From: Methanoculleus sp.
GTDB taxonomy: Archaea > Halobacteriota > Methanomicrobia > Methanomicrobiales > Methanoculleaceae
Reading direction: 5' to 3'
NCBI GenBank assembly: GCA_028698765.1
Contig: JAQVVW010000004.1
Location: 1-14,721, forward strand
DNA: 14,721 nucleotides
Under the pieces are notes generated by a model, which ran no database searches, was not told the origin of the DNA, and saw only the letters and a program-made list of their open reading frames with translations. A program made the translations under genes and the position numbers. Below, in pieces: positions 8,078-12,398 of this stretch; position 1 is the first letter of the stretch, and each line of letters begins with the position of its first letter.

Positions 8078-8398
8078 ATGAGTACGTATCAGGAGACGGC
8101 CGGGGAGGAGAACGGAGGGGTATGGGAGTTGCGGCTCTACGTCGCAGGCCAGACCCCGAAGTCGCTCGCAGCATTCGCGAACCTGAAGAAGTTCTGCGAG
8201 GAGCATCTTGCCGGCCGATACCGGATCGAGGTGATCGATCTCGTCGAACAGCCTCAGCTCGCGAGAGACGACCAGATCTTTGCCGTCCCCACGCTGGTCC
8301 GGAAACTTCCTGAGCCCTTACGAAAGATCATCGGCGATCTCTCGAACACCGAGAAGGTTCTGGTCGGCCTCGATATACGGCCGGGGAATAAAACCTAA
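8078..8398 (+). CDS. kaiB: KaiB-family protein, first copy (keeps fold-switch Asp)
   Basis: A 106-residue protein nearly the length of cyanobacterial KaiB. Family signatures in order: ELRLYVAGQTPKSL, YRIEVIDLVEQPQLARDD, FAVPTLVRKLPEPLRKIIGD and EKVLVGLDI. In cyanobacteria KaiB switches fold to bind the CI ring of KaiC and to compete with the kinase SasA. Residues corresponding to Gly88-Leu89-Asp90 of Synechococcus KaiB are present as Gly97-Leu98-Asp99. The ATG at 8078 is preceded by AGGAAG. The open frame runs upstream to 7847, but that part shows no conserved sequence. It leads a tight cluster: kaiB copy two starts 11 bases downstream. It differs from copy two mainly by a short N-terminus and the retained Asp. 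Confidence 0.93.
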   Translation: MSTYQETAGEENGGVWELRLYVAGQTPKSLAAFANLKKFCEEHLAGRYRIEVIDLVEQPQLARDDQIFAVPTLVRKLPEPLRKIIGDLSNTEKVLVGLDIRPGNKT

Positions 8399-8409
8399 AT
8401 CTCAGGGGG

Positions 8410-8766
8410 GTGAGCGACGAGAGCGACAACCAGGACCGGGGCAGGCGGTTGACCACGGAAGAATTCGAGGCGGCACTGAAGAGTGCGGACTCCCGCTACA
8501 TCCTGCGGCTCTACGTAGCCGGGATGACCCCGCGGTCACAGAGGGCGATCGAGAACATCAAGAACATCTTTGAGACGAGCTACAAAGGGAGTTACGATCT
8601 CGAGGTTATCGACATCTACCAGCACCCCGAACTGGCAAAAGATGCCCAGATCCTCGCGGTGCCCATGCTCATCAAGCAGCTTCCCCTGCCCATCAAGAGG
8701 TTGATCGGGGAGATGTCGGACGAAGATCGCGTCCTTGTCGGGCTCGGGATCAAACAGCTGGAGTGA
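8410..8766 (+). CDS. kaiB: KaiB-family protein, second copy (fold-switch Asp replaced by Gly)
   Basis: A 118-residue paralogue of the preceding gene, starting at GTG. After a 28-residue polar, charged N-terminal extension come YILRLYVAGMTPRSQRAIEN, YDLEVIDIYQHPELAKD, LAVPMLIKQLPLPIKRLIGE and RVLVGLGI. The core aligns throughout with cyanobacterial KaiB, but the position of Asp90 is Gly113 (VGLG instead of VGLD). That site controls fold switching in cyanobacterial KaiB, so the equilibrium or partner choice may differ. Its stop (TGA 8764-8766) overlaps a GTG start of the histidine kinase gene by three bases within GTGA, suggesting translational coupling. Divergence between the two copies points to separate jobs rather than a recent duplication. 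Confidence 0.92.
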   Translation: MSDESDNQDRGRRLTTEEFEAALKSADSRYILRLYVAGMTPRSQRAIENIKNIFETSYKGSYDLEVIDIYQHPELAKDAQILAVPMLIKQLPLPIKRLIGEMSDEDRVLVGLGIKQLE

Positions 8767-10602: not shown

Positions 10603-10610
10603 TTTATATG
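10603..10610 (+). promoter_or_regulatory. TATA box of kaiC
   Basis: TTTATATG, preceded by GGGTTAA, is a good archaeal BRE/TATA combination. Its centre lies about 28 bases before the ATG at 10635, predicting a start of transcription around 10631 and a nearly leaderless kaiC mRNA. The box overlaps the upstream ATG at 10608, which would therefore not be in the transcript. The remaining gap 10470-10602 shows no other clear element. Confidence 0.6.
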
Positions 10611-10634
10611 GTACATACGGATCATCAAGAGAAT

Positions 10635-12398
10635 ATGGATCGGGTTGCAGGTGCTCCGGCACCGTCCGGAGACACCGAGTTCGCTCTGGCAAAGGTGCCG
10701 AGCGGCATCCAGGGCCTTGACGAGATCACCACCGGCGGGCTCCCAAAGGGGCGGCCGACGCTTGTCGTCGGAAAAGCCGGGAGCGGGAAGACGCTCTTTG
10801 CCATGCAGTTCCTGGTGAGCGGGGCGGTGCAGTACGATGAACCCGGCGTCTTCGTCTCTTTTGAGGAGACAGCGGAGGATCTGGTCAAGAACGTCCACTC
10901 TCTCGGCTTCGACCTCCCCCGGCAGATCGCGGAGGAGAAACTCGCGATCGACTACGTCCGGATCGAGATGAGCGAGATCGAGGAGACCGGCGAGTACAAC
11001 CTCGACGGACTCTTCATCAGACTCGCCTATGCGATCGACTCCATCGGGGCGAAACGCGTGGCGCTCGATACCATCGAGGTCCTCTTCTCCGGTCTCTCGA
11101 ACGAGGGTATCATCCGGGCCGAGCTCCGCCGGCTCTTCTCCTGGCTCAAGGAGAAGGGTGTCACGGCGATCGTGACCGGCGAGAGCGGCCAGGGCGAAAG
11201 CCTGACCCGGCACGGCCTGGAGGAGTACGTCTCCGACGCCGTCATCTTCCTCGACCACCGGGTGACCGACCAGATCTCGACCCGGCGCCTGCGCATCGTC
11301 AAGTACCGCGGCTCCACCCACGGCACGAACGAGTACCCGTTCCTGATCACGGGGAACGAAGGTATCGTCATCATGCCGGTCACCACCCTCGGCCTCGAGC
11401 ACGAAGCCCTCGAAGACCGGATCTCCAGCGGCATTGAACGGCTCGATGCAATGCTCGACGGCAGGGGTTACTACCGGGGATCAAGCGTTCTGGTATCCGG
11501 CACGCCGGGCAGCGGCAAGACGAGTTTCGCCGCTGCCTTCGCAGATGCGGCCTGCAGGCGGGGTGAGCGGTGTCTCTACTTCGCCTTTGAAGAGTCGCCG
11601 GGCCAGATCGTCCGGAACATGCGGTCAATCGGGATCGACCTTCAGCCCTGGATTGACGCCGGATGCCTCGTAATCCGCTCTTCCCGCCCGACGGCATACG
11701 GCCTTGAGACGCACCTTGCCGCCATGCTCCGGGATGTGCAGATCTTGCGGCCCGACGCGGTTGTCGTTGACCCCATATCGAGCCTCATCTCGGTGAGCAG
11801 CGAAGCAGACGCAAAGGGGATGTTGATCCGGTTCGTCGACTATCTCAAGGTCAACCATATCACCGGGCTCTTCACCGACCTGACGCGGGCAGAAGGATCT
11901 CTTGAAAAGACGAGGATCGAGATATCATCGCTGATGGATTCATGGATCCTCCTCAAGTTCATCGAGTCCGGCGGCGAGCGGAACCGGGGCCTGTATGTCC
12001 TGAAGTCCCGGGGCATGGCGCACTCCAACCAGGTCCGGGAGGTCATCATCACCGGTGAGGGGATCGATCTCGCGGACGTCTACCTCGGGCCGGGCGGGGT
12101 GTTGACCGGTTCGGCGCGCTACATCAGGGAGATGGAGGAGGAGGCGGAGATTCGGAACCGCGAGGACGAACTCCGGGTCCGGCAGATCGAGGCCGACCGG
12201 AAGCGGAAGGTGCTCGAGGCCCGGATCGCAGCCCTTCAGGTGGAGTGCCGGGGGGTGCAGACGGAGTTCGACCGGTTCTCGCGGGAACTGGACCGTAAGA
12301 GCCAGGCCCGGTCCAGGGAGAGAGGGCACCTTGCCCACATACGGAGGGCGGACAAAACGGCAGGGAATGTCCGGCGGGAATCTGATCCGGAACAATGA
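10635..12398 (+). CDS. kaiC: KaiC, double-domain clock-type ATPase/kinase with C-terminal coiled-coil tail
   Basis: A 587-residue tandem RecA-like protein. The CI domain has Walker A GKAGSGKT (46-53) and the catalytic pair in SFEE (Glu77, Glu78). The CII domain has Walker A GTPGSGKT (289-296) and AFEES (Glu319, Glu320). The phosphosite region reads TRIEISSLMD, giving Thr426, Ser431 and Ser432; these numbers coincide with T426, S431 and T432 of Synechococcus KaiC from memory of that protein. Ser432 replaces Thr, as in KaiC2-type homologues. After GGVLTGSARY comes a strongly charged helix-rich tail (about 497-587) that replaces the KaiA-binding tail. KaiC ATPase and autokinase cycles form the core of the cyanobacterial clock. 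The start at 10635 is chosen because the TATA box overlaps the in-frame ATG at 10608; the longer form would be 596 residues. It lies downstream of kaiB-kaiB-kinase, on the same strand but with its own promoter. Confidence 0.93.
   Translation: MDRVAGAPAPSGDTEFALAKVPSGIQGLDEITTGGLPKGRPTLVVGKAGSGKTLFAMQFLVSGAVQYDEPGVFVSFEETAEDLVKNVHSLGFDLPRQIAEEKLAIDYVRIEMSEIEETGEYNLDGLFIRLAYAIDSIGAKRVALDTIEVLFSGLSNEGIIRAELRRLFSWLKEKGVTAIVTGESGQGESLTRHGLEEYVSDAVIFLDHRVTDQISTRRLRIVKYRGSTHGTNEYPFLITGNEGIVIMPVTTLGLEHEALEDRISSGIERLDAMLDGRGYYRGSSVLVSGTPGSGKTSFAAAFADAACRRGERCLYFAFEESPGQIVRNMRSIGIDLQPWIDAGCLVIRSSRPTAYGLETHLAAMLRDVQILRPDAVVVDPISSLISVSSEADAKGMLIRFVDYLKVNHITGLFTDLTRAEGSLEKTRIEISSLMDSWILLKFIESGGERNRGLYVLKSRGMAHSNQVREVIITGEGIDLADVYLGPGGVLTGSARYIREMEEEAEIRNREDELRVRQIEADRKRKVLEARIAALQVECRGVQTEFDRFSRELDRKSQARSRERGHLAHIRRADKTAGNVRRESDPEQ

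Follow-up and report, generated by a model that had tools for sequence, protein, structure and literature searches.

Organization of the kai locus in Methanoculleus

The 14,721-nucleotide stretch of Methanoculleus sp. DNA analyzed here (GenBank assembly GCA_028698765.1, contig JAQVVW010000004.1, positions 1 to 14,721), which we call the window, carries two kaiB genes, a histidine kinase gene and a kaiC gene in a row (Table 1). We refer to the products of the first and second kaiB genes as KaiB-alpha and KaiB-beta, after two clades whose names are coined in this analysis. An earlier note on this DNA had identified the four genes and placed them on one strand, with the second kaiB and the kinase overlapping. 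This is borne out, as all four lie on the plus strand with clear Pfam matches, and the kaiB-beta stop and the kinase start overlap by 4 bp (8763-8766). Its description of the kinase as a PAS-PAS histidine kinase stands as far as the Pfam domains go, but it missed a conserved leader at the N terminus, ahead of the first Pfam match. Both KaiBs score above the Pfam cut-off for the KaiB domain PF07689 (27 bits) and below the cut-offs of the NCBIfam KaiB equivalogs NF006798 and TIGR02654. Pfam gave no HisKA match in the kinase, and His369 is presumably the phospho-acceptor, its H-box being assigned by eye from the motif. No receiver domain was matched by Pfam among the ten window proteins scanned, which cover part of the open reading frames (ORFs) of the window.

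The kinase and kaiC genes are separated by 138 nucleotides. The kaiC start is uncertain, because the ATG at 10608 overlaps a TATA-like stretch and another ATG follows in the same frame at 10635. A similar TATA-like stretch, judged by eye, precedes kaiC in two of the related loci described below (L138 and L117) and a weaker one in a third (L001), and kaiC may have a promoter of its own.

Table 1. Features of the kai locus, with positions in the window
Feature	Positions	Strand	Basis
kaiB-alpha (KaiB1, first KaiB)	8078..8398	+	Pfam PF07689, E 2.1e-27, 95.1 bits
kaiB-beta (KaiB2, second KaiB)	8410..8766	+	Pfam PF07689, E 4e-25, 87.8 bits
Leader-PAS-PAS histidine kinase	8763..10469	+	568 residues; Pfam PAS_4, PAS_3, HATPase_c
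Kinase leader, EAEETLxAIRxGEVDA...YTLxxAExPYR	8820..9020	+	Alignments; co-occurrence with KaiB
Putative phospho-accepting His369 (THDIGN)	9867..9869	+	By eye; HATPase_c follows
TATA-like stretch 5' of kaiC	10600..10609	+	By eye; possible own promoter
kaiC, double-domain, KaiC2 type	10608..12398	+	596 residues; PF06745 E 9.1e-109, two stretches
KaiC Ser440-Ser441	11925..11930	+	Aligned with R. sphaeroides Ser413-Ser414
KaiC C-terminal extension	12120..12395, boundary approximate	+	Aligned with R. sphaeroides tail, to KaiC residue 555

KaiC resembles a KaiA-independent type

Compared with solved structures, the window KaiC is by far closest to Rhodobacter sphaeroides KaiC (8dba, 614 bits), followed by 8zn5 (386 bits) and 1u9i (about 332 bits), the last of which is Synechococcus elongatus KaiC. 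It displays two ATPase domains with Walker A motifs and catalytic Glu pairs, as in the R. sphaeroides-type KaiC2, Glu86-Glu87 and Glu328-Glu329 aligning with the catalytic pairs of the R. sphaeroides protein. The aligned phosphosites form a Ser-Ser and not a Thr-Ser pair, and the long C-terminal tail aligns with the tail of about 50 residues that forms a coiled coil in R. sphaeroides. Across 104 KaiCs of more than 450 residues, these residues are nearly fixed, with Glu in 104/104 and 104/104 at the CI pair and in 104/104 and 103/104 at the CII pair, and Ser in 102/104 at each phosphosite. The numbering of these sites and the definition of the Ser-Ser pair follow a paper on R. sphaeroides (PMC10076222). 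It describes a KaiC that works without KaiA and senses the ratio of ATP to ADP, the long tail being viewed as an early KaiA substitute and the KaiBC system as an hourglass that requires an outside cue. Judged by its sequence, the window KaiC falls into this KaiA-independent KaiC2 type, the R. sphaeroides "hourglass" class.

No match to KaiA (PF07688) was found in any of 198 genomes of the source's order, and the Synechococcus elongatus control matched, so that KaiA is probably missing from the source genome as well, as inferred from these relatives. The missing KaiA, which the earlier note had proposed to check in relatives, thus finds backing, and its suggestion of a KaiA-less hourglass or energy switch fits, by analogy, a KaiC whose nearest solved relative is the hourglass protein of R. 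sphaeroides. A self-sustained circadian oscillator, for which the presence of KaiB and KaiC with intact sites could be cited, is very improbable, since the KaiA of the KaiABC oscillator is absent from the 198 genomes and the nearest studied system is described, in the paper cited above, as an hourglass that depends on an external signal (PMC10076222).

The locus could also be a stress or energy signaling module without timing, in which the state of KaiC would report ATP/ADP at once; such a module would be compatible with the split-SasA wiring proposed below. The host is a methanogen without an obvious light signal, and the Legionella kai operon is reportedly known for another role. Synechocystis kaiC2B2, too, is considered non-clock in a passage of PMC6989803. 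Against this, the window KaiC retains the phosphosites and the two catalytic Glu pairs known from the phosphorylating hourglass protein, and we hold the absence of timing to be possible but rather doubtful.

The gene set recurs across many phyla

A genome scan with the window KaiC, from which the best 80 loci were kept although more exist, gave 81 loci including the window. Two KaiBs are present in 65 of these, one in 15 and three in 1, and KaiC is the first gene in 79/81. The two-KaiB loci come from about 11 groups, namely Pseudomonadota, Bacteroidota, Thermodesulfobacteriota, Nitrospirota, Acidobacteriota, Planctomycetota, Chloroflexota, Spirochaetota, Myxococcota, Rokuibacteriota and archaea. 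We therefore rejected the idea of a methanogen-specific novelty, and the rarity implied by the earlier note does not hold, because a KaiC-KaiB-KaiB-sensor set recurs across many phyla. What is conserved in relatives is the gene set, the exact KaiB-KaiB-kinase-KaiC order being found in four related loci only. A literature search, with many journals outside its coverage, found no paper on this two-KaiB operon or on the leader, and we do not claim that they are unpublished.

Some loci call for caution as assemblies or genes. Contigs G003:C223 and G053:C119 have the same length and carry KaiB pairs at identical places, which suggests shared or mis-binned contigs, while KaiC is in pieces, with short or split ORFs, in L126 (G080) and L141 (G074), possibly through decay.

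The two KaiBs form two old clades

In a tree of 212 KaiB sequences, the first and second KaiBs of 84 two-KaiB loci can be labeled with a single change. Several neighboring branches split the first from the second KaiB, one of them with a support of 100 in the Shimodaira-Hasegawa-like approximate likelihood ratio test (SH-aLRT). Because one change covers 84 loci, KaiB-alpha and KaiB-beta are best seen as old, separate paralogues, and we rejected a recent local duplication. The two KaiBs of the window, which had been called divergent from their sequences, fall in different clades. The clades differ at a diagnostic column, where Ile is found in 82/84 first KaiBs and Leu in 83/84 second KaiBs. The second KaiB is further marked by Tyr in 74/84 and Gln in 75/84 at a diagnostic place and by an N-terminal FExAL region, with Phe in 55/84. 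KaiB-alpha is the more conserved, with a mean column identity of 58 percent versus 50 percent for KaiB-beta. The R. sphaeroides and cyanobacterial KaiBs lie on the alpha side at each separating branch, and the best solved relative of the window KaiB-alpha is R. sphaeroides KaiB (8fwj, 110 bits).

A conserved leader marks the sensor that follows KaiB

The protein encoded after the last KaiB usually starts with a leader of consensus EAEETLxAIRxGEVDA...YTLxxAExPYRxLIExM, which is followed by a PAS domain. We aligned 57 such proteins from the 66 loci with at least two KaiBs, 9 having been excluded because the next gene was cut by the contig end or absent or, in L022, because the sensor lay beyond the 300-nucleotide limit. 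Read by eye in the aligned rows, the leader is present in 55/57, L003 having its second half only, and is lacking in L042 and L070. The output parts of the same 57 proteins vary, with a HATPase domain in 44, HisKA in 33 and a receiver in 21; we thus rejected the kinase as an invariant fourth partner, and it is the leader that recurs. Typing of the H-boxes by regular expressions left 47/103 unclassified and was not used. In ten loci of Bacteroidota (L025, L027, L033, L054, L055, L057, L063, L065, L068 and L069) KaiB-beta is followed by a short PAS protein of 233-241 residues, which has the leader and, by its length, no kinase part. In L138 (G101, 4585-6289) the kinase frame is split into two overlapping ORFs, by a frameshift or an assembly error.

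A profile search with E up to 0.01 found the leader in 84/88 loci with at least two KaiBs; four loci gave no match, among them L058 and L074, which are cut off by the contig end. The leader was also found in 9/9 single-KaiB loci that lie on the beta side at the branch with SH-aLRT 100. At the genome level (profile E up to 1e-6), the leader follows the presence of KaiB closely. It is present in 30/31 KaiB genomes versus 0/168 others in the order of G001, in 22/23 versus 0/118 in the order of a Geomonas genome and in 19/20 versus 0/128 in the order of a Spirosoma genome; pooled with the planctomycete phylum, where up to 25 candidates per genome were scanned, the counts are 78/88 versus 0/646, these being related genomes and not independent samples. 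In the order of G001, 62/199 genomes match PF07689, of which the 31 with at least 69 bits were counted as KaiB genomes. The other 31, with partial-profile matches of 20-31 bits (8 above the Pfam cut-off) and no full KaiB, were dropped as probably thioredoxin-like. One genome, G199, was scored apart from the other 198 and has the leader. When the ten leaderless KaiB genomes were searched again (E up to 0.001), weak matches appeared directly after a KaiB in G426, where the match is broken into two, and in G522, and none appeared in the remaining eight. A KaiB sits immediately upstream of 86 of the 96 leader matches. A full-text literature search for the leader motif GEVDALVV returned no paper.

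KaiB-beta can be fused to the leader and kinase

In L115 (G072), a single 640-residue protein has the architecture KaiB-leader-PAS-PAS-HisKA-HATPase, and three further fusion proteins (P0005-P0007) were found among 291 candidates by a search that relied on shared short words and may have missed others. Whichever candidate branch is taken, the KaiB parts of the fusions fall on the beta side, and a leader match (19 to 54 bits) follows. SasA homologues outside cyanobacteria are said, in a passage of PMC5520375, to be without a KaiB-like domain; at the level of architecture, and without a claim of SasA orthology, the KaiB-beta fusion sequences counter this statement. The window kinase itself has no KaiB match in Pfam and so lacks a SasA-type fused KaiB-like domain. 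The evidence carries the earlier comparison with SasA further, to KaiB-beta as a putative separated adaptor of the SasA type. Two other KaiB matches occur in frames of 538 and 429 residues (G599:C98 and G670:C164), which could be further fusions or just long overlapping frames.

These data bear on a different reading of the locus, in which two KaiBs of much the same function would serve a KaiC2 energy switch, for dosage or fine tuning, and the PAS kinase would be an input sensor modifying the Kai proteins instead of an output adaptor. Precedents exist in passages of the literature, as a redox input by the adjacent kinase has been proposed for R. sphaeroides and R. rubrum (PMC5520375, PMC10931921) and Synechocystis KaiC3 is acted on by two KaiBs (PMC6989803), and single-KaiB loci with a leader sensor do exist. 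However, one change splits the 84 pairs, the Ile and Leu of the diagnostic column are nearly fixed, and it is a beta-side KaiB that the fusions carry. We thus find equivalent KaiBs unlikely.

Predicted folds of the two KaiBs

AlphaFold2 predicted different folds for the two clades. With an alignment of 65 alpha sequences, the model has the ground-state order of elements and best matches 1vgl, 1wwj and 1r5p, and also 4kso. With 64 beta sequences, it has the fold-switched order and best matches 5jyt, 5n8y, 5jwr and 5jwo, SasA N-domain structures (1t4y and 6x61) appearing further down the list. L003 was left out of both alignments and L058 out of the beta one. The models thus tentatively point, with low confidence, to a KaiB-alpha in the ground-state fold and a KaiB-beta in a fold-switched, SasA-like fold. 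A fold-switched prediction has been verified for one KaiB by nuclear magnetic resonance (NMR), as a passage of PMC10808063 reports.

The rearranged gene order appears to be a local chimaera

The KaiC-last order of the window is shared, among the best 80 loci, by L001 only, and was also found in L138 and L117 among 32 further stretches from the order. These four loci have the same neighbors, PurL, PurQ, a small ORF and a DNA methyltransferase, and the window KaiC is 87 percent identical to that of Methanoculleus sp. NL_3.1 and 91 percent to that of G101. The histories of their genes are discordant. The KaiCs of the four rearranged loci group with those of the single-KaiB cassettes L118 and L125 (support 88, not starred), and their grouping with eight canonical Methanoculleus-type KaiCs is rejected by the approximately unbiased (AU) test (P = 2.5e-6 with L119 included and 7e-49 without it). 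KaiB-alpha, KaiB-beta and the leader-PAS region, in turn, place the four loci with the eight canonical ones (SH-aLRT 100), and a clade of the eight canonical loci without the rearranged four is not rejected for these parts (AU test, P = 0.051). As KaiC is of another lineage than the KaiBs, it appears from these trees to have been swapped in from another Kai cassette, which makes the window order a local chimaera. A simple tandem duplication followed by loss is not favored, given the lineage of KaiC and the window flanks, which yielded no remnant of a KaiB or KaiC gene.

In L117 (G071, 4552-9250), the KaiB-KaiB-kinase-KaiC genes are followed by a third KaiB, which groups weakly with the single-KaiB cassettes (79, on a long branch). 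G071 also carries L118, a separate cassette of the order kinase-KaiC-KaiB-kinase.

A candidate readout for KaiC without KaiA

Building on what is observed, namely the identities of the genes, the conserved pair of KaiBs, the Kai-linked leader, the fusion and the discordant origin of KaiC, we propose, with a probability of roughly 55 percent, that the locus encodes a KaiA-independent KaiC2 energy timer or energy switch that brings its own readout, in which KaiB-beta and the leader-kinase are a split SasA. The binding, competition, output and timing that we infer for these proteins would run as follows. KaiC would autophosphorylate on its Ser-Ser pair without KaiA, aided by its own C-terminal tail as in R. 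sphaeroides, and would follow ATP/ADP. KaiB-alpha would be an ordinary metamorphic KaiB that switches fold, binds the CI ring and speeds up the reset. KaiB-beta, thioredoxin-like, would attach the leader of the kinase to KaiC and hand over the state of the CI ring, competing with KaiB-alpha or following it on KaiC. The PAS domains could bring in a small-molecule, metabolite or redox input, and the output would pass from the kinase to an unlinked response regulator. In the Methanoculleus lineage, the original KaiC would have been replaced by that of another cassette, now 3' of the kinase. A wider version, in which KaiB-beta has the thioredoxin fold at all times and reads KaiC together with leader-bearing sensors, KaiB-alpha and the beta-leader pair form an old timer-and-readout unit of bacteria and archaea, and SasA is its fused cyanobacterial counterpart, is more tentative, and we put it somewhat short of even odds.

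Several observations weigh against the split-SasA proposal. The single KaiBs of L009, L015, L016, L036, L048 and L062 lie between the clades, on a side that varies with the branch or tree, as do a few single KaiBs of Methanomicrobiales. By sequence, KaiB-beta is only slightly like SasA (19.7 and 18.1 bits), and a single-sequence search finds it nearest to cyanobacterial KaiB, a protein of the alpha side in the tree. The leader also occurs in 8/14 loci with a single alpha-side KaiB, and is therefore not strictly tied to KaiB-beta, and in L118 a kinase follows KaiB without it. In the planctomycete phylum it is present in just 7/14 KaiB genomes (versus 0/232 others). The NCBIfam NahK model aligns from residue 51 of the window kinase, which means that sequences related to the second half of the leader region exist elsewhere, and a HATPase domain is found in only the 44/57 proteins given above. 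The four fusions form one clade (support 99) and therefore represent one event. As for the folds, the AlphaFold2 confidence is low, with a predicted local distance difference test (pLDDT) score of 66.5 for alpha and 64.6 for beta, and a passage of PMC11344769 attributes the AlphaFold2 fold choice for KaiB to memorized structures.

Archaeal KaiC was reportedly described as a signaling hub by Makarova in 2017, in work that PMC5847659 cites. The output path outside cyanobacteria must differ, according to a passage of a survey (PMC5520375). The conserved second KaiB and the Kai-linked leader together offer a concrete candidate reader of KaiC for KaiBC systems without KaiA, SasA and RpaA across many phyla, methanogens included. 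With the R. sphaeroides KaiBC system (8dba, 8fwj) the locus shares the KaiC traits described above (the 614-bit match, Ser-Ser and Glu pairs, C-terminal extension), the lack of KaiA and a KaiB that is, among solved structures, closest to KaiB-alpha; it differs in that its operon also includes a KaiB of a second clade and a sensor with leader and PAS domains, and in having KaiC last. With cyanobacterial KaiABC-SasA it shares KaiB and KaiC homologues, a kinase and, in the KaiB-beta model, a likeness to fold-switched KaiB and the SasA N-domain, but it has no KaiA, a Ser-Ser instead of a Ser-Thr pair and a kinase without a fused KaiB-like domain, the putative adaptor being a separate gene. Clusters of kaiC and kaiB with a downstream kinase or GGDEF/EAL protein were already noted in the Ramlibacter paper, whose relevant passages assign the Nt_HK family to kaiC without kaiB and do not mention two KaiB clades or a shared leader (PMC3164672). 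Finally, KaiB-4 and Legionella KaiB are variants favoring the fold-switched state, one of them confirmed by NMR, which the corresponding passages do not describe as operon partners of a metamorphic KaiB (PMC10808063). KaiB-alpha and KaiB-beta are a natural pair for testing fold switching against a possibly fixed fold, and the leader is a marker for finding Kai-linked sensors.

Neighboring genes

Upstream of the kai genes, a 447-residue ORF on the minus strand (6601-7944) resembles by eye a C45-type peptidase or acyltransferase, with no Pfam match at E 0.001; L138 and L117 each have a counterpart at this locus, and none was matched in L001. On the 3' side, kaiC is followed by a small ORF without a Pfam match (12626-12904) and a DNA methyltransferase (N6_N4_Mtase, 12955-13866), both of which have counterparts in L001, L138 and L117.

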